From the NCBI GenBank assembly GCA_022925895.1, contig JAKSYS010000640.1, positions 1 to 36,199 on the forward strand: DNA of 36,199 nucleotides. Reading direction: 5' to 3'. This document shows, piece by piece, positions 23,528 through 36,199 of the stretch (position 1 is its first letter; every line of letters starts with the position of its first letter). This stretch comes from Fragilaria crotonensis. Its lineage: Eukaryota > Bacillariophyta > Fragilariophyceae > Fragilariales > Fragilariaceae. The notes beneath the pieces are model-generated. The model was not told the origin of the DNA. It worked only from the letters and a program-made list of their open reading frames with translations, and did not search any database. Position numbers and translations under genes: made by a program.

Positions 23528-26500
23528 TTACCAAAGACCAACATTCTTCTTCAGACTATTTTTCTTCCAAGGCTTTAGAGTGCTGAACTCTTCCTTCGCC
23601 ATCCCGAAGTAGGTTTGGAAGTCAGCAGGAGAGAGGTATTGTTCTCGTGTCGCGTATTCAACCCCGTCCACACCAGCTTTCAACTCGTCCAACGAGTAAA
23701 ATTGATGCCATGCTCTTCAGCTGCTTTCTTGCGAGCTGCCTCGGCCTCTGCAGCCAACTTCTTAGCTGCGTCTTCGGCAGCAAGTCGCGCTGCTTCTTTC
23801 TCTTCTTGCATTTTCTTCAGTTTTTCCTCAGCAGCCTTGACCTTCTCCTCCAGTTCCTTCTTCTTTCTTTCCTCCTCAGCCAACCTCGCCACCTCCAAGG
23901 ACTTGATTTTCTCTGCGGCTTCAAGTTTACGGGCCTTTTCTTCTTCAATCATAGCCTTCGCCTGAGCTTCTTGGCGGGCCTTGATCTCCTCGGCACTTCT
24001 ACCCATGTTCTTCAGCAGCTCTGCGGCTTCTTTCTTCCGTGCATCTTCCTCCTCCTTGAGAGCTTTTATTTGTGCCGCCTTTATTGCTTCGAGTTCTTCA
24101 GCAGACTTTTGAGACTGCTTGATTCGTTCAGCAGCTTCAAGCTTTCGGGCTTGCTCTTCTTCTTTCATAATGCGAGCTTGTTCAAGCTTGTGGGCTTCGC
24201 GATCAGCAGCGCTCATCTTTTCAATAGCATTCTGCTTGCGAGCGCTATCAGTCAAAGCCAACTTCTGATCCGTAGGCTCGGAATTTAGAGAAGCTGACTT
24301 ACTGACCGATACAACGGGCGTTGAAGGCTCCTTCGTTGCGGGAATTGCTTGTGATTCCGATTCAGCAGTAACGTCGACCGCAATATTTGATTCACCCGCT
24401 TTATCAACCACAGCTTCCGTAGGCTGTGAGAGGGACTGGGATTCAGTGCCATCAAACGCTTGCTCTTCAACTTCCTCTGCAGGCTCTTGCGTCTCAAGAA
24501 TTGGTTCCCCTGCCGTAGTCACATCTGCGTCAGGCATTCCTACAAGCGTGTGGTTTGCATCCGAATCTGACGCGATTGGAGCGACATCAGACGGTTCATC
24601 AACAGCCGGCTCCTCTTCGACTGACTCTACTACACCAGGGTCGGTCTCTCGCTTCTCCTCAACGACTGCAACATCAATCGGTTCCTCATTGCCTGGCTCC
24701 TCCGGAACAGGTCCATCCGCGATAGGTTCGACGATAACGGATTCCTCGGCGACTGACTCTTCCGCAACTGTGTCGGCTGCAATGGATGCTGCGGCAGCCA
24801 GTTCCTCGGCGATTGGCTCCTCCACAACATGTTCGGTGTCCGGCTTCTCCTCGACGATTGCCACATCAATCGGTTCCTCATCGCCCGGCTCCTCAGCAAC
24901 AGGTGCAGCCGCGATAGGCTCCAAGACACTAGATTCCTCGGCGACTGACTCTTCAGAAGCTACAGCAGCCTTTTCCTCGGCGATTGGTTCTTGCGCAACC
25001 GGCTTCTCAGGGATTGGATCTTCCGTAACTTCCGTGGTGACAGTCTCCTCGGCTGCAACTTGTTCCCCTGTGATAGGTGCAACATCAACCGGTTCCTCCA
25101 AGTTGGGTGCTACGGCAGCCGATTCCTCCGTAACGGCCTCCGCTGGGGCAACAGGTTCCGGTGCGATGGGTGCCACACCAACCACTTCCTCTGCGATTGG
25201 ATCCTCTGCAACCGATTCCGCTGCGATTGGTGCAACGGCCCCCGATTCCTCAGCAACGGAGTCTTCTGCGATAACAGGTTCCTCTGCGATTGAATCCTCT
25301 GCGATTGGGGCAACGCCGATCGGTTCCTCTGCAATGATATCCTCACCGATGGGCTCCTCTGCGATTAGTGCAACGGCAGCCAATTCCTCGCTTACGGTCT
25401 CGTCTGCTGCAACAGGTTCCGGATCGATTGGTGCAGCGTCAACCGCTTCATCCGCGATTGGATCCTCATTAATGGGCTCTTCCGCGATTGGTGCAACGGC
25501 AGCCGATTCCTCGGAAACGGACTCCTCTGCGGCAACAGGTTCCGGTTCGAGTGGTACGATATCAGCCGGTTCCTCATCGATTGGCACCTCTGCAATTGAT
25601 GCAACGGCACCCGATTCCACAGTAACGGACTCTTCTGCAGCAACAATTTCCGCTGCAATGGGTGAAGCAGCAACCGGTTCATCGGAAACTGGATCCTCTG
25701 AAATTGGTACAACAGCACCAGATTCCTCTGCGATTGGATCCTCATCAATGAGCTCCTCTGCGGTTGGTGCATCGGCAACCAGTTCATCGACACTTGACTC
25801 CTCGACAACCGGTTCCACCGCAATGGGTACTCCGGCAGTCGGATTCTCAGCGATCGATTCTTCGGCAACTAACTCGTTTGAGGGTACTTCACCGATACCG
25901 TGTTCCTGTTTAACGGCATCTGCTGCTATCGGCTTCTCATCGATTGGTTCCTCTGAATTATGATCTTCTTCGACTACGTCCTCTGTGATTGGTTCCACTT
26001 CAACGGGTTCCTTTGCTACAGATTCTTCCACTGGCTCCTCCTCGACGCTATCGTCTGCAACTAGCGTCTCTTCGACAAAATCGTCAACTGCGGTTGATGC
26101 ACCGGCTGCTATAACCGCATCTGATTCGTCAGCATAAGCTTCTCCTTCTCCAGCTGTATCTTCAATAGTGTCCAATTCGAGTTGATCGGTCGTGTTCTGG
26201 GTCGGTTCGTTTTGCTGCACCTCATCGTTTTGGTCTGCATCCACTGGCACAACGTCTTCCGAAGCATTATTGTCTGGTGCATCATCATCTTCTCCTCCTT
26301 CTTCCGATGACACTAATGCACTTTCATGTTCGGCTGCAACGCCACCGTCGTCATTCACAACGACACTTTGATGATCCATCACGCCATTGGTCGTGTGGAG
26401 GTCGGTGTAGTCGGCTTCGTCAGTAGGAACAGAAACGACTTCGTTCTGGATAGCGAAAGCTTCTGCCTCCATATCGTTAGTAAGGTCCTTCTTTGTACCT

Positions 26501-26568
26501 CCCATTGAGTAATCCTCTGGTTGGTCGTAGTCGTCGATGCTGTTGTTGTTGGTCGGCGTAGTCGACAT
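23528..26568 (-). CDS. Acidic-repeat, coiled-coil protein with C-terminal villin headpiece (one 1-nt frameshift)
   Basis: The start is ATG at 26566-26568 (MSTTPTNNNSIDDYDQPEDY); the frame extends 10 codons upstream only from a GTG. Residues of about 170-700 are a long acidic Glu/Pro/Ala/Val/Ile repeat of five-residue units such as EEPIA and EEPVA. About 788-955 is a Lys/Glu-rich coiled coil with three tandem 36-residue units sharing EEExARKxEAAE. In the long frame the protein stops at 23680. However, one missing base in the T-run at minus 23701-23698 (aattttac) would continue it in the next frame to a stop at 23528-23530, ending in a classic 35-residue villin headpiece: LSPADFQTYFGMAKEEF, then LKPWKKNSLKKNVGLW. 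With one base restored the total is exactly 1014 codons. Headpieces bind F-actin, so an actin-crosslinking or actin-tethering role is inferred. Confidence 0.82.
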
Positions 26569-27093
26569 GTTGGGATGAAGCGCAAAGGAGGTCGACACTG
26601 GGATTGATCAAATGGTGCCACTACGAATCTTTTAATTTTCAAACTGCCGAAGAAAGAATTCGAAAGTCCTTGATGTGCTTGTGGTTCTTGTGCTCTTTAT
26701 GATCTTCGTGCGACGTGTGTATGAGTGCCGTGACTCAAGGACAAGGGCCAATCGTTGGAGTGTGATTTTTAAAGTTGTTGTTGTGGGGATTTTCGGGGAG
26801 GCACAGAGTATAATGATTTTTCGTGACCTGCAACCACGTGTTGCAAGGCTGTTTTACTTGCCCCATTGCCCCATTGGACGGAGCATCTATAGCACATATA
26901 CACCATTAGATTCAGTACTTAAACGCGTACATATCGTATAGAAGCCACGAGCGCGTTGGCACAACTCATCGTAGGGACAGGAAGGCGCGTTCCTCCGCAG
27001 ACTAGAAAAATAGACTATGGCTCGGAGTATCATGGTCACACGCTATCCGGAGGGTCGATGGGCGCGCCCGGATCGCCAAAGAGAAGGGGTTTG
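26569..27093. other. Upstream region of the headpiece gene, up to the LTR element
   Basis: No gene is seen; the plus-strand frame at 26675-26941 has no recognisable domain. The promoter of the minus-strand headpiece gene should lie in the first part. The five bases before the LTR are gtttg (27089-27093). Confidence 0.4.
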
Positions 27094-27594
27094 TGACAGT
27101 ATTCGTGTAGACGGTACGCGAGTACTGGCCGACAGTACGCTGAAGGACGGTAGGTCCGGGCGTACGCATGACGGACTTGGAGCACAGGCCACTGGCGGAC
27201 ATGGCTTTGGGCGACGTAGTAGGGTTGACCATGGTGAATGTAAGTAGTACAAATGTGTAGATATGTAGAGGAACAATAGTAGGGAAGTAAAGGCCTTTAC
27301 TTTGTGTGTTAATGGAAGTTGTAGATGTAGAATAATGAGAATAGAAGTGGGGGAACCAAATGATGAAAAAGTGAGGTGCAGATGAGACTCCGAGGCTAAT
27401 GTAGATGGCATCCGATTTAGTACCAGGGGTCGTGTGTAGACCGGTACGTAGAAATGAGATGGCATCTACATTAGGCCGGATGGCATCTCAAATTCAAATG
27501 GTTACGCGGGACAAGAGGTCTGATTCTCAGGAGCTAGTGTTGTGACGGAAAGTGGTCAGACGACTCATGACGGTGCAACAGTAGATCTCTATCA
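27094..27594 (-). repeat. 3' LTR of the copia element (501 bp)
   Basis: Matches 35700-36197 along its whole length by direct comparison. The only difference seen is three extra bases here (gaaagtggtcag against gaaagtcag). It ends in TG/CA. Confidence 0.93.
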
Positions 27595-27605
27595 CCCCTC
27601 TTGGA
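27595..27605 (-). other. Polypurine tract of the copia element
   Basis: On the minus strand the sequence reads AAGAGGGG directly before the 3' LTR (TGATAG), the position and composition expected of the plus-strand DNA primer site. The pol stop codon lies just upstream. Confidence 0.8.
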
Positions 27606-30272
27606 TCAGATCTCAGGTCCCAAAGTTGGTGAAGAAAGCATGTGGTCAGGTAGGATGCAGAAGATCTTCTTGAGGTGTGGATCAATTTTGCCAGAAAGTT
27701 GTGTCTTGGTGAGAATATCAGCAAGTTGATAGTCACAAGGGATCCAGTGAAGTTGATGGATACCATCTTGTTGGCCTTGGCGGACAAAATGGAAGCGTCG
27801 TTCAATGTGACGGGTCTTGCGGGTGAGTTTGCCATTTTTGGCAATCTGAACAGTGGCTTCATTGTCAATCATTAAGATTGCAGGAGTGGTTGGTAAGTGC
27901 TGGGTGGATTCGCGCCATTGTTTTGTGCCAAGATATAGCATGTCATAGAGGAGCATGCGGATGTGAGCGGTGGCCATGGTGGCAGAGCATGCAGCCATAT
28001 ATTCAGCTTCAGAGGTTGACATGGCAACTGGAGTGGGCATGGTTGAGTTTGCTTCAATAAGTGCTCCATTGTGGAAGATCATGTAGCCAATGGTTGAGCG
28101 GCCAGTGTCTGGGCAGTCTTGCCAGCTGGCATCAGAGAAAACAGTAAGATCAGCATAGGGGATGCGATGTTGTAGGCAGATCTCATAGATAGGATTGGAT
28201 GTGCAATCAGGGTAGAACTTGAGTGCATAGTAGGGACGGCGGCGTAGGTAGCCGATGAGCCAGGTGAGGGCACGGAAGTCGAGAATTCCAGGAGCAATAC
28301 AGGCTTTGGCAAGTTTGCAGACAGCAAAGAGGATATCAGCTCTGGTGTTGTATGCCAGGTAGAGGAGAGTGCAGACAGCGGAGCGAAAGGGAAGTCGCTG
28401 TTGCTTTTGTGCAACAAGTGCAATGTCTTGTTCTGTGACAGGACGGTTTTCTTTACTGAAGGTGTAGTCTGGCGGGAATGGGGTGTCGCGTTCGGGGAAT
28501 TCGGAAGTCGGGTCATAACGTTGAAGGGTGTTCAAGACATAACGGTGCTGGTCCAAAGTATAGGTTGAGTCTTGGTGCTGGTGAATGCGCATTTGCAGGA
28601 ACCATTGTGCAGGACCAAGGAATTTGACATCAAAGCGGTTTTTGACGGAATCTTCAAATTGTTTTTCAATGGAATCATTGCTGCCAGCATACAGCATATC
28701 ATCAACGAAGAAAAGGAGGCGGAGCCATTGGTTGTGTTTGTCATATCGGACAAAGTAGGATGGTTCAGATTGGGATTGGATAAAACCTTGGGAGTAAAGC
28801 CATTCAGAAAATTCAATGTTCCAGTATTTGCCAGAGTAGACAAGGCCATAGATTCCTTTGTCCAGGAGAAGTGGTTTGCCAAAGAATTTAGCATATTCAG
28901 GGAAATGAAAAGCGTATTCCAATGGGAGCTTAACAAAGTGGCGGCCAATGACTTTAGCTTGCAAGTAGGCGCCAATAAAGTCAGCACTTTTGAGTTTGCG
29001 GCGGGAAGCACAAATTGTGGAGAGAAGGAGCTTGACCCCTCTTGAAGATGCACAGGGTGACCAAGTGTCCTCAAAGGGTTGAGGAATTTCAATTGGTTGG
29101 ACTTTTGGTGTTGCAGAAGCAATTGCATTAGCAATTTCTTGACGCTGTTGAAGGAGATGTTGCTGATGTGCGGCTTTTGCTTTCTTTAAAAGACGTTTCT
29201 CCAAGTCGCCTCGGGCGACCAGGCGAGCTTTAAGTTTCTCAAGTTTGCCAGTTGCTGTTTGTTTGGCTTTGAGAACAAGTTTGACAGGAATGATAGGGTC
29301 AGCTTGGGATGGAGTTTGTCCAAGGATGAATGTGCCATGATCAATGAGATTCTTGATTTCCATGCGAATTGCATGTAGCCAGGCAGAGCGTATGTCATCA
29401 TCAAGTTTGAGGACAGCTTTAAGAGATTGTGGCTCAGGAAGGTATTTGTCAACAGGTTCAGCAGGTTCTTCTTGACTGATAGTTGTATTATCAATGGTGA
29501 GCATGGCAGTGTGAATGGGATCAATGGAAGGAGGATCTTCATTACACTCTTGGAAGTAGAGGGTCATCATCTTTTGTAGATTGGAATGGCAGTGTTGGTG
29601 GCCAATGTAGTTCACTTGGTGTGGTGTTGGTGGTGTAGGGCCATGTTGATTATCAATATGGGAGGCATCAGGAAGTGCCACAAGTGATGTTGGGAGTTCG
29701 GAGGCATCAAGGAAGTGTGATGGAGGATTGCCGAGATCAGCGGCTGAGCCAGTTTGGTGAAAAGTGGCAGGTTCAGAGTTTTCAGCAGTGTTGCGGAGGC
29801 CATTGGGATTGAAATGGGAGCGTATAGGAACAGCTCCAGCAAAGGGCTTTGAATCAAAGCATAGGGCAGAGTTGAAGTCTTCATCAAAGTAGGCGTCACG
29901 TGTGATAATGAGGCTTTGCGGTTGATCAGGAGAATAGATGAGCCAGCCTGCAGAGTTTTCAGGGAATCCAAGGAATATACCACGGGAAGCGCGTTGGAGT
30001 TGCTGCTTATAGGTAATGATCTTGTTGCGGAAAGTTGGTTCATAACGCTTGAAGAAGGTTGGGCAACCAAAGATGCAGAAATTGCCTAGATTGGGCTTGC
30101 GTTTGTAGCTGAATTGATATGGAGTTGTTGGGATTCCATTGATGTCAGTGACATTCTTGGCTGGGCAGACATTGATAATGTGGACAGCATAGGCATGTGC
30201 ATGGTGGAAGAAGGCGCCACCAAGTCGGGCATTGTTAATCTGTTGGATAGGCCAGTTTGCAAAGATTTGCAT
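27606..30272 (-). CDS. Copia pol fragment: integrase C-terminus, reverse transcriptase, RNase H
   Basis: 888 codons, intact. Residues 1-145 match the part of copia integrase after the catalytic Glu: NARLGGAFFHHAHAYAVHII, PTTPYQFSYKRKPNLGNFCI, RASRGIFLGFPENSAGWLIY. Reverse transcriptase spans about 285-590: KLKARLVARGD (347-356), SADFIGAYLQA with Asp431, DKGIYGLVYSGKYW, and FFVDDMLYAG (521-530) with the active-site pair Asp524-Asp525. RNase H spans about 708-860: FSDASWQD with Asp714, MSTSEAEYMA with Glu755, MIDNEATVQ with Asp803, and YQLADILTK with Asp852. All polymerase and RNase H catalytic residues are present. The integrase zinc (HHCC) and DDE core are absent from this frame, and the DNA upstream encodes something else in a different frame, so integration would need help in trans. 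Confidence 0.93.
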   Translation of the reverse strand: MQIFANWPIQQINNARLGGAFFHHAHAYAVHIINVCPAKNVTDINGIPTTPYQFSYKRKPNLGNFCIFGCPTFFKRYEPTFRNKIITYKQQLQRASRGIFLGFPENSAGWLIYSPDQPQSLIITRDAYFDEDFNSALCFDSKPFAGAVPIRSHFNPNGLRNTAENSEPATFHQTGSAADLGNPPSHFLDASELPTSLVALPDASHIDNQHGPTPPTPHQVNYIGHQHCHSNLQKMMTLYFQECNEDPPSIDPIHTAMLTIDNTTISQEEPAEPVDKYLPEPQSLKAVLKLDDDIRSAWLHAIRMEIKNLIDHGTFILGQTPSQADPIIPVKLVLKAKQTATGKLEKLKARLVARGDLEKRLLKKAKAAHQQHLLQQRQEIANAIASATPKVQPIEIPQPFEDTWSPCASSRGVKLLLSTICASRRKLKSADFIGAYLQAKVIGRHFVKLPLEYAFHFPEYAKFFGKPLLLDKGIYGLVYSGKYWNIEFSEWLYSQGFIQSQSEPSYFVRYDKHNQWLRLLFFVDDMLYAGSNDSIEKQFEDSVKNRFDVKFLGPAQWFLQMRIHQHQDSTYTLDQHRYVLNTLQRYDPTSEFPERDTPFPPDYTFSKENRPVTEQDIALVAQKQQRLPFRSAVCTLLYLAYNTRADILFAVCKLAKACIAPGILDFRALTWLIGYLRRRPYYALKFYPDCTSNPIYEICLQHRIPYADLTVFSDASWQDCPDTGRSTIGYMIFHNGALIEANSTMPTPVAMSTSEAEYMAACSATMATAHIRMLLYDMLYLGTKQWRESTQHLPTTPAILMIDNEATVQIAKNGKLTRKTRHIERRFHFVRQGQQDGIHQLHWIPCDYQLADILTKTQLSGKIDPHLKKIFCILPDHMLSSPTLGPEI

Positions 30273-31272
30273 TTTTGGCGTACTTCAGAAGAGTCTTTGT
30301 TAGATCTTCAATCGGAGGATAGGTGAAATCAGTCCGGGTGGAAGATGTCAGCACATCAGGTGATGTGGGCTTCAACTGTTTTGGATCTTCTTCAGAGTCA
30401 TGGTCAGTATCATTGTCAAAGAATGTTTCAATTGTTGGTGGATAGGAAAAGGTAGCGTGGGTCGCCGGGCGCGGAGTTTGTTGACGGGACTCAAGGTTTT
30501 GAGTTTTTGCCATTTTTGTTGATTTATTTCCGGTCATTGAGGGGTTTTGTGTAGATTTGGGTATTGACATTTTTGACGGTTGAAGAATTTCGTCCTCATG
30601 TTTTGGGAGCAGCGACGGATTTAGTGACGGATTTTGTTGCACGGGGTTCGAATCCGTAGGTGATGTGTTTTTGGAACGTATATTTTCGGTCGCGGTAGAA
30701 AATGTTGTCAAAACCGGGTGGTTGGGGTTCGAGTCGGTTGTAGCCGGGACGTGAGGTGTTTTTGCGTTTTTCGGCGTTATGATGCTTGAAAATGCGTCAG
30801 AAATGCGCTGAAGTGGTCCAGGTGTTGCATTTGCCGATTGAGGTGACCTTGAGGGTGTTTCTGTGTGCGAAGTGTCGGTTTCGGGCGAGTTTTGCGCTGA
30901 AATCGCAAGATTTTGTTGTGTTCCGGGCAGAGATTGAGTTTCTTGCACTTGTTCCTCATACGTGGTTTCTTCGTCAGTTTCGAGGGGATTTTCAGCAGTA
31001 TTGGCGTCGTTTTGCGTGGAAATTTCGCGTGCAGTGTCGTTTTGTGCAGGAATTTCGTGTTGGAGGTCCGGGGTTCGAGTCGGGGGCTGATTTAGTGACG
31101 AACGTCGCGTTTGTACCGCTAGAAAAGCGTGATGTGTACCCGTAAACGTGTTTTTATCCTCTTGGAATTTAATTACTGGTTGACTTTCAGCTAAATCTTG
31201 CGCATTTGGACAGAAATTGCTGTCGTGCATAGAAATAGGTAAGTCACCAGTAAAATATCCAGGATAATTCAA
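30235..31272 (-). CDS. Unidentified, probably disordered ORF between the gag-like region and pol
   Basis: 345 codons from a non-ATG (TTG) position; the frame is open upstream from about 31310. It is rich in Gln, Asn, Ser, Thr, Pro and Glu (for example TRRSSLNQPPTRTPDLQHEI and TSPTDSNPVQQNPSLNPSLL) and looks disordered. Its end overlaps the pol fragment by 38 nt in another frame. It sits where protease and the integrase catalytic domain would be expected, but no DTG/DSG protease site, HHCC zinc motif or DDE pattern is visible. It is +1 relative to the large ORF before it. It could be a linker after a deletion of protease and integrase, or replacement sequence. Confidence 0.55.
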   Translation of the reverse strand: MNYPGYFTGDLPISMHDSNFCPNAQDLAESQPVIKFQEDKNTFTGTHHAFLAVQTRRSSLNQPPTRTPDLQHEIPAQNDTAREISTQNDANTAENPLETDEETTYEEQVQETQSLPGTQQNLAISAQNSPETDTSHTETPSRSPQSANATPGPLQRISDAFSSIITPKNAKTPHVPATTDSNPNHPVLTTFSTATENIRSKNTSPTDSNPVQQNPSLNPSLLPKHEDEILQPSKMSIPKSTQNPSMTGNKSTKMAKTQNLESRQQTPRPATHATFSYPPTIETFFDNDTDHDSEEDPKQLKPTSPDVLTSSTRTDFTYPPIEDLTKTLLKYAKNANLCKLAYPTD

Positions 31273-31318
31273 TTGAGGTGGACTAGACTCACCTGTTCCA
31301 TCAAGATTGATGGGTGAG

Positions 31319-34300
31319 TCAGGTCCCTTGAATCAATATATGGGTATTCCGGGTGGTTGTGTTTCTCTCGATAGAAATAAGAGAGGTGATTGTTGAAAAG
31401 TTGCAATTCAGGATCACGGAGGGCATCATTGAGATGCGGAGCGCCCAGGCTCGATAAACGTTGTTTCCAAATGGGAAATGGTGTAAACTGGGATCAAGCG
31501 GATAGCCAGGAAAATGGAATCTTTGTGGGATCACGGGCAATGTGATACATTTGTGAGTGCTCATTTCGCCAAAGTTCAGCAGGTTATGCTGAATCCAGTC
31601 TGGGTCATCCAAATTGTAGGTTTGGAGAGGCTTGGCAGCTTGCTTGTAGAATAGGGATTTGACTGATTCCTTGGTGTAGGGATTTCCATCAGGATCAATG
31701 ATGATTGGTTGTTGGTCATGATCAAGGGTGACAGGGAAGATTCCAGCTCTTGCTGTTGGGATGGCCATTTCAGTTGGAGAGCCATAAGAATAGGTTGGGC
31801 CACAGAGTGGTGAACCTTGGAAGATAACACCATGTGAAGGTGGGCAGTTCTTAGGAAGGATGCCAGTTGGATCTTTTGGATCAATCAGTTGCACAACGCG
31901 GAATAGGATGTACTCAGAATGCGGTAGAAAATCGATTGAGTCATTGGCAGAATTGGTTGCAATTGGGGTGACTGTCTGGAGGGCATCAATGTAACGTAGG
32001 GGATCATGATACTGAAGATTCATGATAGTTGTGATGTTGAATGGTTTGCAAACAACAAAATTTATGGCAAGGGCTGTGTCAGTGGAGTATGAAGTGGCCA
32101 GCTGAACATCTGAAGGTTTGGTAACCATTGGGAAGGAAACTGAGAAGGCAGTGAGCAGGTGGTCTGCTGGTGGTAGATTGCCAACAATGATCTCATACTG
32201 AGAGAATTCAGGGTCTCTGGAGATGCAGATTTTGTGGTGAGCCATGCCATGTTGAAGGATGGCAAAACGGATGAAGTCTTGAGCAATGTGTAGTGCTGTG
32301 GCTTGGGTGTCTGCATGGGTGTCAAAGGTATTGACAAAGGCAGTTGTGAATGGATGTGCAGCTTTGAATTGTGATTCAATATGTGTGACGCTTGATTGGA
32401 GATTTTCAAATTGATGATGAGTCAATTCATCGGGTGGCATCGGGAACTGATCAATATCCTGGAAGGTGTCTTGAATGAAGTAGGGTAGTTTTCGGAATGT
32501 TGTTGACTTGGGAAATAAACTGAGTGCTGCAGCCGAAGAGTTGATATCACGAGCAATTTCATGAAGATTTCCAGGGTAGAAGAGATGCTTTGGGTATCCA
32601 AGTGTGTTGTAGTTTCTGTGATGAACAAGGTACATCATTCTCAGAGCATAGATAAATGCAGTTGCACACTTTGACATGATTTCTGACTGATCATCATCCA
32701 GGTCATTGAAGGAAGATGGGAGGTTCTGCGGAAATAGTTCACGTTGTGGCGATCGCAGATGTGCGAGCAATAGATAGGTTGCCCGATTCAGTGTGTGGGT
32801 CATGCATTCGACTGATAGAATGTCAGACAAGGGGCGTCCCATGTGGTAGGGAGCTCGTGTGATTTGAAGGGACCGATTGTTGATTGAATAAAAATACCAG
32901 AAAAGGTGGTGCCGATTGATATCACGGATGTAGTTCACAGCCGGGGGTGCATCCAAATAGTTCAGGCAGAAAGATGCAATGGTGATGCTTGTGTTAACGC
33001 AGATTGGCAAGTCGCGGAGGCGAATAGGGCCATTTTTGTCATCATGTAGAATAGCATCTGGGAAGGATAGCTCTGCGGGAGCATTGTAGTCCTCTTCTTG
33101 GAACATTCGGAAAGGGTTGAGATGAATTTCCGAAAGATTATCGTCGGGGCGATAGGGTGGGTCCGGGAATAAACTGGGTAGCATTCTTGCTGGTGGTTGG
33201 TACTCTGAAGGTAAGTCTTCTTCTTGGGCTTCATTTGCTGAGAGTAAGTCGTTGGGTTGGTCATCATCAAATGATTTGTTTTCCTCCATGCAAAGCATTG
33301 CGAAGTGTCCTTCATCATCATGTGAGTGAAAAGGAGGAGAAACAGGGTAAGCAAAACTGTTGTCATTACTAGGTAAATCATTACTGTCAGAGTAATAATT
33401 TATCCCAGTGTTGATTTCAGGGTTGTCCTCATCAGGTAAATCCTCAAGTTTGATTGGAATAGGGTGCTGGACTTCATCATGAAGAGTGGCTTGACTGCTT
33501 GTAGGGTTTGTGTTGGACAACGTGCAGTGGGCCAAGTGGGGAAGATTGAGTCCCGTGGTATCGGTCTTAACAACTGTAGTCAAATATACAGTAGTGTCTC
33601 TGCAATGGTAAGGCGGGGAAGCACCGGTGGTTGGTGACGGCGTCCCAGGGCTTGGTGATACATCTGTACTGCGTACGGGAGAGCAGTAAGAGTAGGCTGG
33701 CGAACAGAAGGGGTATCGCGGCGTAGAAAGGTCGGAGAAGCATCGCGGTGTGTTCGCTGTATTAGAGCGCGGAGTGTAGCTCTCGGAGGAGCTCGAAGGG
33801 GGTAGGCTGATGTTTTCGTCGACGTCAGCGTATCCGGGAATGATGACATCATGGTTCTCATCAATGACGTCAGGACGGTTCTGATACGGTTGGAGGGCGC
33901 TTTCCAGGTGAGCGAGTAAATTTTGTGGGTGACAAGTGTCCAGCGAGCGAAGAGATTCTGGGGGGTTGTCTGTTTCAGAATTTTGCAAAGTTCCAACGTC
34001 GAGAACTTCACTTTCGTCTCTTCGATTCTCGAATGTTTCGAGGATGGGATCCGTTGGAGTGTCTTCTTCTGGTGCTTCAGCGGGGGAAACGGCGGTTAAT
34101 GCGGTGCTGACGAGGCGTAGGGCGGTTTTCAAGGTGTCCAAATCGCCATTGCCGTAGTTTTCGGGCAGATTGCGAAGGAAGTGGCGGAAGAGCAGGAGTT
34201 TCTTTTGGGTTCCTTTCGGTGGCTCTTTTTCGGGATTGCGGTGAAGATCTTCAAGGGCTTCAACAAGGGAAAGCAGATCTTGGTGGAGGGTTTGTAAACC

Positions 34301-34885
34301 CTTAGAGTCGTCATGTTCGACGAGAGTTTCGACAAGGCGGGGAAGGTTGTATGTAACGCCTTCCGGGTTGCGCTCAAGGGCATGAGTGGAGCTTCGTTTC
34401 GGCGGCCATGTCAGGTTAATTTTCGAGCAAGCATGGTCGCGGGTGTTCTTCAGAATTGATTGCAGCTTCTTAAAAGGGCTTGTGTAGACCGTTTTTGGTT
34501 GTCCTTTGGTAGTTGTATCCATCATCGTTGTAGTGTTGTCCATAGTAGTCGTTGTGTCCGTAGTAGTGTTCAAATCATTCGTTTGTGTCGTCAATTCGGC
34601 CGCGTTGGGGGATCTTGATAGCAATTGTTTGCTCTTCGACCAGATGAGGGTCGGAATTCGGAAGAAGGGGAGCGCTGCGGGTTTTCTGTCATCATCTTGG
34701 TTGTTGGAAAGGAGTGGGACAACACTCTGAGTAGTAGTATCTGTAGGTCGCTCATCTTGGTGGCGAACGGGATCATCCTCGACACGGCGAGGGAAAATAA
34801 AGAGCTCTTCGGAGGGTCTGGAATGCTTCATCAGACATGGGGTAGGCCGCAAAAGTAGGGATGGTAGGGTCGGGACAAGAAGCAA
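31319..34885 (-). CDS. Large unidentified ORF of the LTR element (gag-position protein)
   Basis: 1188 codons open from a TTG; the true reading probably enters from upstream frames. The first 350 residues are charged and low in complexity, including Thr-rich repeats (NTTTDTTTTMDNTTTMMD). A Ser/Pro/Tyr-rich patch follows (SPAYSYCSPVRSTDVSPSPG). From about residue 560 the sequence becomes ordered-looking and helix-rich, with blocks such as RHHLFWYFYSINNRSLQITR, TAFIYALRMMYLVHHRNYNT and ALHIAQDFIRFAILQHGMAH. I do not recognise a family, and there is no CCHC zinc knuckle, protease motif or integrase signature. Its position suggests a gag-like structural protein, but it is far larger than usual copia Gag. 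It ends at TGA 31319-31321, within reach of a +1 frame that continues into the next ORF. Confidence 0.65.
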   Translation of the reverse strand: MLLVPTLPSLLLRPTPCLMKHSRPSEELFIFPRRVEDDPVRHQDERPTDTTTQSVVPLLSNNQDDDRKPAALPFFRIPTLIWSKSKQLLSRSPNAAELTTQTNDLNTTTDTTTTMDNTTTMMDTTTKGQPKTVYTSPFKKLQSILKNTRDHACSKINLTWPPKRSSTHALERNPEGVTYNLPRLVETLVEHDDSKGLQTLHQDLLSLVEALEDLHRNPEKEPPKGTQKKLLLFRHFLRNLPENYGNGDLDTLKTALRLVSTALTAVSPAEAPEEDTPTDPILETFENRRDESEVLDVGTLQNSETDNPPESLRSLDTCHPQNLLAHLESALQPYQNRPDVIDENHDVIIPGYADVDENISLPPSSSSESYTPRSNTANTPRCFSDLSTPRYPFCSPAYSYCSPVRSTDVSPSPGTPSPTTGASPPYHCRDTTVYLTTVVKTDTTGLNLPHLAHCTLSNTNPTSSQATLHDEVQHPIPIKLEDLPDEDNPEINTGINYYSDSNDLPSNDNSFAYPVSPPFHSHDDEGHFAMLCMEENKSFDDDQPNDLLSANEAQEEDLPSEYQPPARMLPSLFPDPPYRPDDNLSEIHLNPFRMFQEEDYNAPAELSFPDAILHDDKNGPIRLRDLPICVNTSITIASFCLNYLDAPPAVNYIRDINRHHLFWYFYSINNRSLQITRAPYHMGRPLSDILSVECMTHTLNRATYLLLAHLRSPQRELFPQNLPSSFNDLDDDQSEIMSKCATAFIYALRMMYLVHHRNYNTLGYPKHLFYPGNLHEIARDINSSAAALSLFPKSTTFRKLPYFIQDTFQDIDQFPMPPDELTHHQFENLQSSVTHIESQFKAAHPFTTAFVNTFDTHADTQATALHIAQDFIRFAILQHGMAHHKICISRDPEFSQYEIIVGNLPPADHLLTAFSVSFPMVTKPSDVQLATSYSTDTALAINFVVCKPFNITTIMNLQYHDPLRYIDALQTVTPIATNSANDSIDFLPHSEYILFRVVQLIDPKDPTGILPKNCPPSHGVIFQGSPLCGPTYSYGSPTEMAIPTARAGIFPVTLDHDQQPIIIDPDGNPYTKESVKSLFYKQAAKPLQTYNLDDPDWIQHNLLNFGEMSTHKCITLPVIPQRFHFPGYPLDPSLHHFPFGNNVYRAWALRISMMPSVILNCNFSTITSLISIERNTTTRNTHILIQGT

Positions 34886-34980
34886 TGTTGGTCGATGGAC
34901 GGTCGACGGCGGCAGTAGTAGTAATCGTTGGATCCTTGGTAACGTTGGTAGTTTCTTCAGTTGGCATGCTTACGTTGGTC

Positions 34981-35016
34981 TTCTTCTTCTTCTTCTTCTT
35001 CTTCTTCTTCTTCTTC
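34981..35016. repeat. (TTC)12 microsatellite inside the LTR element
   Basis: Twelve uninterrupted TTC triplets, followed by TT and then a short GAT/ATG run to about 35031. On the coding (minus) strand these give poly-Glu preceded by HHHH. It is a natural place for length variation. Confidence 0.9.
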
Positions 35017-35686
35017 TTGATGATGATGATGCTTGGGCTTCTTGATAATCTTCTTGTCCATTTCAGTAGTAATCACAGTCGAGTCGAGGTCGCGAAATTC
35101 CTCGAGAATAGTATCGATATCGTCGTCGTTGGTGGCGCCACTTTGTTGGAGAAAGTGCGCTTCTTCTTGTAATGTTTGGGTCCTTCTTAATCTTCTGATC
35201 GTCACCAGAAGTAGGGGTAGTCGGGAACATAAGGTTGGCAAGCTTGGATTTCTTTGGGGATCCGTATGCTAAGGCTCCATGGTAGAGGAAAGGGTGAGTG
35301 GGAGTGCCTTCAGGGACTGGACTACTGCCAAGGGTGGCAGGGACATCATTGATGTCATCAAAGGTCTCAGTGTTGACAGGCTTGGCCTTCTTGGGGCGTG
35401 GGAGTGGTAGTTGGGGTGTTGGTCTTCATGGTCAAGTCTTTGTTGTTGTTGTTGAACTTCAAGATTTGTTTTGTTGGGCTCTGGGTCAAGTTCCTGAGTT
35501 TTGGCGGGAGGTAGTTTCGTAGTTGCACTGTCGCATAACTGTAGTTTTTCAACGGCGTGTCCGAGTGCTAGTGCAGTAGGCGTAGACGTTGTCGTAGTAG
35601 TAGTAGGTACGGTAGTGTCGTGCTTCTGGACGGTGCCAGTAGACGAGTAGACCTTCGACGGTAGTGTGCCTCTGATCGGTGGTACA

Positions 35687-35699
35687 AGGCGAGCAACCA
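35687..35699 (-). other. Primer-binding site of the copia element
   Basis: On the minus strand TGGTTGCTCGCC follows the LTR end CTGTCA directly. It would pair with a tRNA ending GGCGAGCAACCA. It is not the initiator-Met type used by many copia elements. The stretch is also translated, because the gag-like frame runs through it. Confidence 0.65.
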
Positions 35700-36197
35700 T
35701 GACAGTATTCGTGTAGACGGTACGCGAGTACTGGCCGACAGTACGCTGAAGGACGGTAGGTCCGGGCGTACGCATGACGGACTTGGAGCACAGGCCACTG
35801 GCGGACATGGCTTTGGGCGACGTAGTAGGGTTGACCATGGTGAATGTAAGTAGTACAAATGTGTAGATATGTAGAGGAACAATAGTAGGGAAGTAAAGGC
35901 CTTTACTTTGTGTGTTAATGGAAGTTGTAGATGTAGAATAATGAGAATAGAAGTGGGGGAACCAAATGATGAAAAAGTGAGGTGCAGATGAGACTCCGAG
36001 GCTAATGTAGATGGCATCCGATTTAGTACCAGGGGTCGTGTGTAGACCGGTACGTAGAAATGAGATGGCATCTACATTAGGCCGGATGGCATCTCAAATT
36101 CAAATGGTTACGCGGGACAAGAGGTCTGATTCTCAGGAGCTAGTGTTGTGACGGAAAGTCAGACGACTCATGACGGTGCAACAGTAGATCTCTATCA
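35700..36197 (-). repeat. 5' LTR of the copia element (498 bp)
   Basis: Same sequence as 27094-27594 except for the 3-bp deletion. On the minus strand it starts TGATAGAG at 36197 and ends CTGTCA at 35700, immediately before the primer-binding site. The gag-like ATG at 35836-35838 lies inside it. Confidence 0.93.
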
Positions 36198-36199
36198 AT

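Follow-up and report, generated by a model that had tools for sequence, protein, structure and literature searches.

What kind of mobile element occupies the end of a contig from the diatom Fragilaria crotonensis (JAKSYS010000640.1, assembly GCA_022925895.1), and how could it have moved when no protease or integrase core is recognisable in it? We analysed the whole stretch of 36,199 nucleotides (positions 1 to 36,199, hereafter the window), whose last part (27094-36197, minus strand) is a 9.1-kb long terminal repeat (LTR) element with a polymerase, an RNase H and, upstream of these, two long open reading frames (ORFs) of 1188 and 345 codons. We consider it probable that the element is a non-autonomous, partly decayed Ty1/copia derivative, packaged and integrated in trans, from which an internal deletion removed the protease and the integrase core, and whose longer ORF is its own oversized Gag.

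The element is bounded by a 5' LTR of 498 bp (35700-36197, minus strand) and a 3' LTR of 501 bp (27094-27594, minus strand), both of which start with TGATAG and end with CTGTCA, giving TGA...TCA termini. When aligned, the two LTRs show no substitution and a single 3-bp indel, a near-identity that indicates recent movement. A repeat search of the window recovered 300 bases of the 5' LTR as an exact repeat and found no further LTR copy besides these two. A polypurine tract, AAGAGGGG (27595-27602, minus strand), lies by sequence directly before the 3' LTR, and the internal region starts (35680-35699, minus strand) with TGG directly after the CA of the LTR, as in primer-binding sites. The LTR pair and the polypurine tract typical of Ty1/copia are thus present, the primer site being judged from its TGG alone. 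The sense strand is C-rich across the whole element and the GC skew steps from 0.000 (26001-27000) to 0.311 (27001-28000) at its inner border, so that the long ORFs look native to the element.

The pol ORF (27606-30272, minus strand, frame f0) encodes, in order, the tail of an integrase core, an integrase C-terminal SH3-like domain (29877-30107, minus strand; SH3_retrovirus PF25597, pol residues 56-132, E=1.6e-11), a linker, a reverse transcriptase (RT; 28497-29078, minus strand; RVT_2 PF07727, pol residues 399-592, profile positions 50-236 of 244, E=1.2e-26) and an RNase H. Two records, L012 (NZ_CP115454.1) and L013 (NC_015657.1), served as references. Residues 20-867 of pol align at 24% identity to the Copia-type pol of L012, and the RT motifs ADFIGAY and FVDDM as well as the RNase H motifs SDAS, SEAEY, IDNEA and LADILTK, which we take to hold the catalytic residues, coincide with those of L012. 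The polymerase/RNase H frame is intact and has the Ty1/copia order, with RNase H coming after an RVT_2 reverse transcriptase; of the integrase that Ty1/copia elements carry upstream of the RT, the SH3-like tail is seen and the core is not. Compared with L012, pol has an insertion of about 36 residues (29079-29207, minus strand, pol residues ~356-398), in which Gln, Lys and Ala abound and which lies behind the KARLVARG motif and ahead of TWSP. The four PDB sequence matches of pol, each of which is an E1 protein of alphavirus type and the best of which has E=0.18, were taken as chance.

The missing domains were sought by motif, profile and translated searches. When the element was read in its three sense frames, none of the patterns written for the zinc knuckle, the protease and the HHCC motif occurred. 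Pfam gave no match at E<=1 for either ORF upstream of pol and none at E<=10 for the three frames of 30003-31602, while the three frames of 34500-35901 yielded four matches to unrelated families (E 0.85-5.1); these two intervals made up the three-frame profile search, the middle of the long ORF (31603-34499) being covered in its own frame. The same library detected gag_pre-integrs (2.8e-14) and rve (7.8e-12) in L012. A tblastn search of the L012 and L013 proteins against the window gave eight matches at E<=10, of which two were better than E=0.01, both in pol; the 1230-residue ORF of L013, read by eye as covering Ty-type Gag to integrase, had a single match at E<=10 (E=5.6), within pol. In sum, no aspartic protease appeared by motif in the three sense frames or by profile, protease having lacked a positive control, and neither the DDE integrase core nor the HHCC zinc domain was found by profile, motif or tblastn, with a control element that is less divergent.

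With L012 as a ruler, the place of the catalytic Glu falls at pol residue -2 (codon 30281-30279), where the pol frame reads Thr, with an in-frame stop two codons earlier. The first residue of pol with BLAST similarity to a Copia pol is residue 20, at 30215, which lies 22 residues beyond the aligned Glu. In a three-frame view, the junction (30240-30287, minus strand) lies just past the Glu place and consists of the end of the 345-codon ORF, in f2, overlapping the start of the pol frame, in f0. An integrase that ends mid-domain between disagreeing flanking frames bears the mark of a deletion, and we infer from the sequence that the structure around the junction is what a deletion would leave. 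A possible integrase helix read in f1 just before the pol frame (score against two reference helices -2, compared with -18 for the pol frame; control mean -34, sd 17) came from the inspection of several frames and was not counted as evidence.

These results confirm the observation made in the sequence-only reading, an earlier note on this DNA. It had described an LTR element with polymerase and RNase H but no visible protease or integrase core, LTRs that are almost identical, a pol frame that opens right behind where the catalytic Glu would sit and is complete to its end, and motif-free ORFs of 1188 and 345 codons standing in place of the missing domains. The span that it had assigned, 30235-35699, does contain these ORFs, but the element itself reaches 36197.

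The 1188-codon ORF (P0003; 31319-34885, minus strand, frame f1), which opens with TTG and not ATG, looks coding. Its stop-free stretch extends over 1216 codons, a length reached by 0 of 300 dinucleotide shuffles of 31322-34969, and its codon-position signal has a z of 29.6. When a codon model trained on pol alone was applied to pieces of 150 nt, the frame of the long ORF was best in 16 of 19, f2 outscoring it over 33808-33583. The protein is of disordered type from residue 1 to ~620 and richer in order thereafter, residues 621-1140 holding as many order-prone residues as pol; the weakest coding signal apart from the tail comes from residues 621-890 (codon-position z 3.2, a value that 3 of 300 shuffles attained). 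No match was obtained among PDB sequences at E<=5, in PHROG or in Pfam at E<=1. Judged only by its place and size, the long ORF is most likely a large lineage-specific Gag.

The frame of this probable Gag does not seem to run unbroken. With a lenient switch rate, a frame-switching codon model followed f1 to 31444, f0 over 31443-31332, f2 over 31331-30948 and the f0 of pol from 30238, and with a strict rate it called 31583-30239 non-coding. The lenient rate and the pol-trained model both designate 31290-31442 (minus strand) as a probable frameshift stretch, where f0 is more coding than the f1 of the long ORF; at the other end, f0 beats f1 at 34970-34800 in the pol-trained model. The frame thus probably breaks near 31443 and above 34790. 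These breaks, for which the support is modest, may be mutations or assembly errors; as the reading frame shifts near the ends of the long ORF, a complete Gag may not be produced from this copy. A repeat of 13 GAA units (TCT on the plus strand; 34979-35018) precedes the long ORF at a place where coding seems to pass from one frame to another.

Between the long ORF and pol lies the 345-codon ORF (P0002; 30235-31272, minus strand, frame f2), which also opens with TTG instead of ATG. It is rich in Thr, Pro and Ser, of disordered type, and part of a stop-free stretch of 365 codons (30238-31332). None of 300 dinucleotide shuffles of 30285-31321 reached 345 stop-free codons, and the codon-position signal has a z of 15.1 against an open-frame null. 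The pol-trained model prefers its frame over 31290-30950 and 30600-30290 but not over 30950-30600, and 30947-30239 is classed as non-coding by the frame-switching model at the lenient rate; the last two results speak against coding. This ORF occupies the place where the integrase core is expected, and its composition (69% disorder-prone residues, two Cys, no Trp) speaks against a hidden core.

Relatives were sought in several collections. No relative emerged from protein-pattern scans of viral contigs (with pol and its RT portion, with the long ORF and its C-terminal half, and with the integrase tail), from a protein-pattern scan of genome contigs with pol, or from RNase H motif scans of both collections and a search with one LTR 19-mer; such pattern scans need exact short peptides or motifs and would miss distant relatives. 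A general RNase H motif was present at 11 loci, against which tblastn, with a query that possibly comprised all three ORFs, gave one match at chance level (L010, E=0.019), which was set aside. With tblastn, pol had no match in phage records and matched three of 72,556 plasmid records, two of which are the references used here, and the long ORF had no match at E<=1 in the plasmid records. L012 and L013 are filed as bacterial 'plasmid' records and read as Copia/Ty-type retrotransposons, this sequence being probably eukaryotic contamination; NZ_CP115302.1 looks like them in the match listing.

How, then, might such an element have moved? In the mechanism that we propose, this copy or one of its ancestors would have lost the protease and the zinc and catalytic parts of the integrase through an internal deletion, whose junction would place the end of the Thr/Pro/Ser-rich ORF, in a different frame, directly before the integrase helix that follows the catalytic Glu. 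An oversized Gag particular to the lineage would be encoded by the long ORF. The RNA would be packaged with the Gag and Pol of an intact relative having matching LTR ends, copied by RT and then inserted by the integrase of that relative. The near-identity of the LTRs would date the deletion to the most recent copying cycle or shortly afterwards, unless a mobilised parent already carried it; the functions missing from such a parent could have been supplied by relatives in trans, as proposed for Tos17 and Athila. Entry by recombination of complementary DNA (cDNA) is possible and weakly supported. The combination of intact ends and missing enzymes, which characterises non-autonomous Copia derivatives, is what we observe. 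Of the two explanations offered by the sequence-only reading, dependence on the enzymes of relatives is favoured by this anatomy, whereas a new function for the large ORF found no positive support, the integrase being cut inside its conserved core, not at a domain border, with disagreeing frames on its two sides.

Several observations weigh against a deleted, trans-mobilised element with its own Gag. Neither a Gag profile match nor a CCHC zinc knuckle, as expected of a Copia Gag, was found in the long ORF, and its order-rich part carries the weakest coding signal (z 3.2). The earlier note had suggested a profile search and structure prediction for this ORF; the former gave no Gag match, and single-sequence models of the order-richer part show helices at a mean predicted local distance difference test score (pLDDT) of 31.8 and 35.1, a very low confidence and too low for a fold search. 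The switches near 31443 and 31331 vanish under the strict rate, and the second half of the 345-codon ORF keeps a codon-position signal of z 8.4, without decay. As RVT_2 scores 248.5 bits in L012 and 94.3 in the pol of the element, the control is less divergent, so a divergent integrase core might score below notice here; moreover, the coding sequence of L012 has no Gag or protease, so the Pfam control backs the absence of an integrase core partly and that of a protease not at all. For the segment from the junction to pol residue 20, the match to two reference helices is not significant, its score being attained by 17% of the 3362 control peptides, which leaves the breakpoint unfixed. The deletion is deduced from one copy, no intact relative having been found in the collections searched. 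Finally, only two bases of the window (AT, 36198-36199) lie beyond the 5' LTR; set against the 3' flank, CAAACCCCTT, they fit no target duplication of 3-10 bp, including the ~5 bp usual for Ty1/copia, and this flank may be an assembly end, as the window stops 2 bp outside the LTR.

The same data can be read in other ways. The deletion could be old and shared by an established non-autonomous family, in which the long ORF, kept under selection, makes Gag and the family amplifies as the stable partner of an autonomous one. The recent movement indicated by the LTRs, the long open frames with codon-position signal and the precedent of Athila, as presented in passages of PMC2410132, would all suit such a family, but the probable switches near 31443, 31331 and above 34790 would break the protein and there is no second copy to compare; with one indel in ~1 kb of LTR, the breaks could have followed insertion, and overall we regard this history as unlikely. 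A bolder version, a self-standing Copia lineage that has shed protease and integrase, retains RT-RNase H together with a new, very large structural protein, and forms a mobile family spreading through the integrase of another family or cDNA recombination into existing LTRs, seems to us quite unlikely. Had this copy had no need of its own integrase, its cDNA entering an existing LTR or element by homologous recombination, then the absent integrase core and the two outer bases that fit no target duplication would be explained, and passages of PMC12786077 describe this route for Tf1 and attribute it to Rad52; yet the window stops 2 bp outside the LTR, where the flank may be an assembly end, and contains no further LTR copy, and we give this scenario very little credence.

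Two further proposals concern the ORFs themselves. The 345-codon stretch could be an intron or alternative segment running from CAG/GTGAGT at 31292 to a CAACAG ending at 30240: the 1053 bases so bounded are a multiple of three and cover most of this ORF, both sites are in phase 0 of f0, the frame of pol and the best frame at 31442-31290 as well as in pol, and CAGGTGAGT (31295-31287, minus strand), at the end of the f0 stretch that follows the long ORF, is unique on the two strands of the window. Such an intron would nevertheless leave the protease and integrase core missing and would need to persist through an RNA intermediate, the stretch itself contains an open frame that carries a codon-position signal, and the sites were noticed afterwards, without a test against chance; we find this highly improbable. 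Hardly more credible, in our view, is that one of the two ORFs encodes a new enzyme taking over from integrase or protease, or that it contains a core which has diverged beyond recognition. The lack of any profile or structure match, with two models too low in confidence to exclude a new fold, leaves room for it, as does a long ORF as order-prone as pol over residues 621-1140, but the integrase truncation falls within a conserved domain and coincides with a frame change, the 345-codon ORF has 69% disorder-prone residues, and CxxC and D[ST]G[AST] occur in neither ORF. A deleted Copia derivative mobilised in trans remains our preferred interpretation.

Elsewhere in the window, the genes are of eukaryotic type and encode TrmO-domain, protein kinase, ARM and ankyrin proteins; no tRNA was found in the window, nor any Rfam match at gathering scores. 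A 975-codon stop-free frame (23683-26607, minus strand) overlaps a 564-codon frame (24269-25960, plus strand) in a stretch of tandem repeats with periods of 15-261 bp, which may explain both; the only Pfam match of the minus-strand frame is a weak one to Extensin_1, below the cut-off.

A single broken copy would matter little. If the junction recurs in many recent copies, it would define a Copia family that keeps its polymerase and borrows protease and integrase, and such a family, if real, would offer a direct test case for the extent of enzyme sharing in trans among LTR elements.

Among known systems, the element resembles Ty1/copia, for instance the diatom CoDi elements (named as an example of Ty1/copia, with no placement within CoDi implied), in its TG/CA LTR ends, its polypurine tract and an integrase SH3-like tail that precedes RT and RNase H, and differs in that neither a protease nor a zinc knuckle nor an integrase core can be recognised. 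Passages of PMC2806351 give 5182-8062 bp for elements of two diatoms; at 9.1 kb, the present element is longer despite missing part of pol. The non-autonomous Athila families of Arabidopsis, in the portions of PMC2410132 that deal with them, likewise have intact structural ORFs and lack enzymes, whereas RT-RNase H is kept here. The rice Copia element Tos17, in the account given by passages of PMC3977881, has no gag and nevertheless transposes, help in trans having been proposed. Both thus appear as incomplete Copia elements whose ends are intact and for which trans help has been invoked, but as described there Tos17 lacks gag and keeps its integrase, of which the element of F. crotonensis is the reverse.

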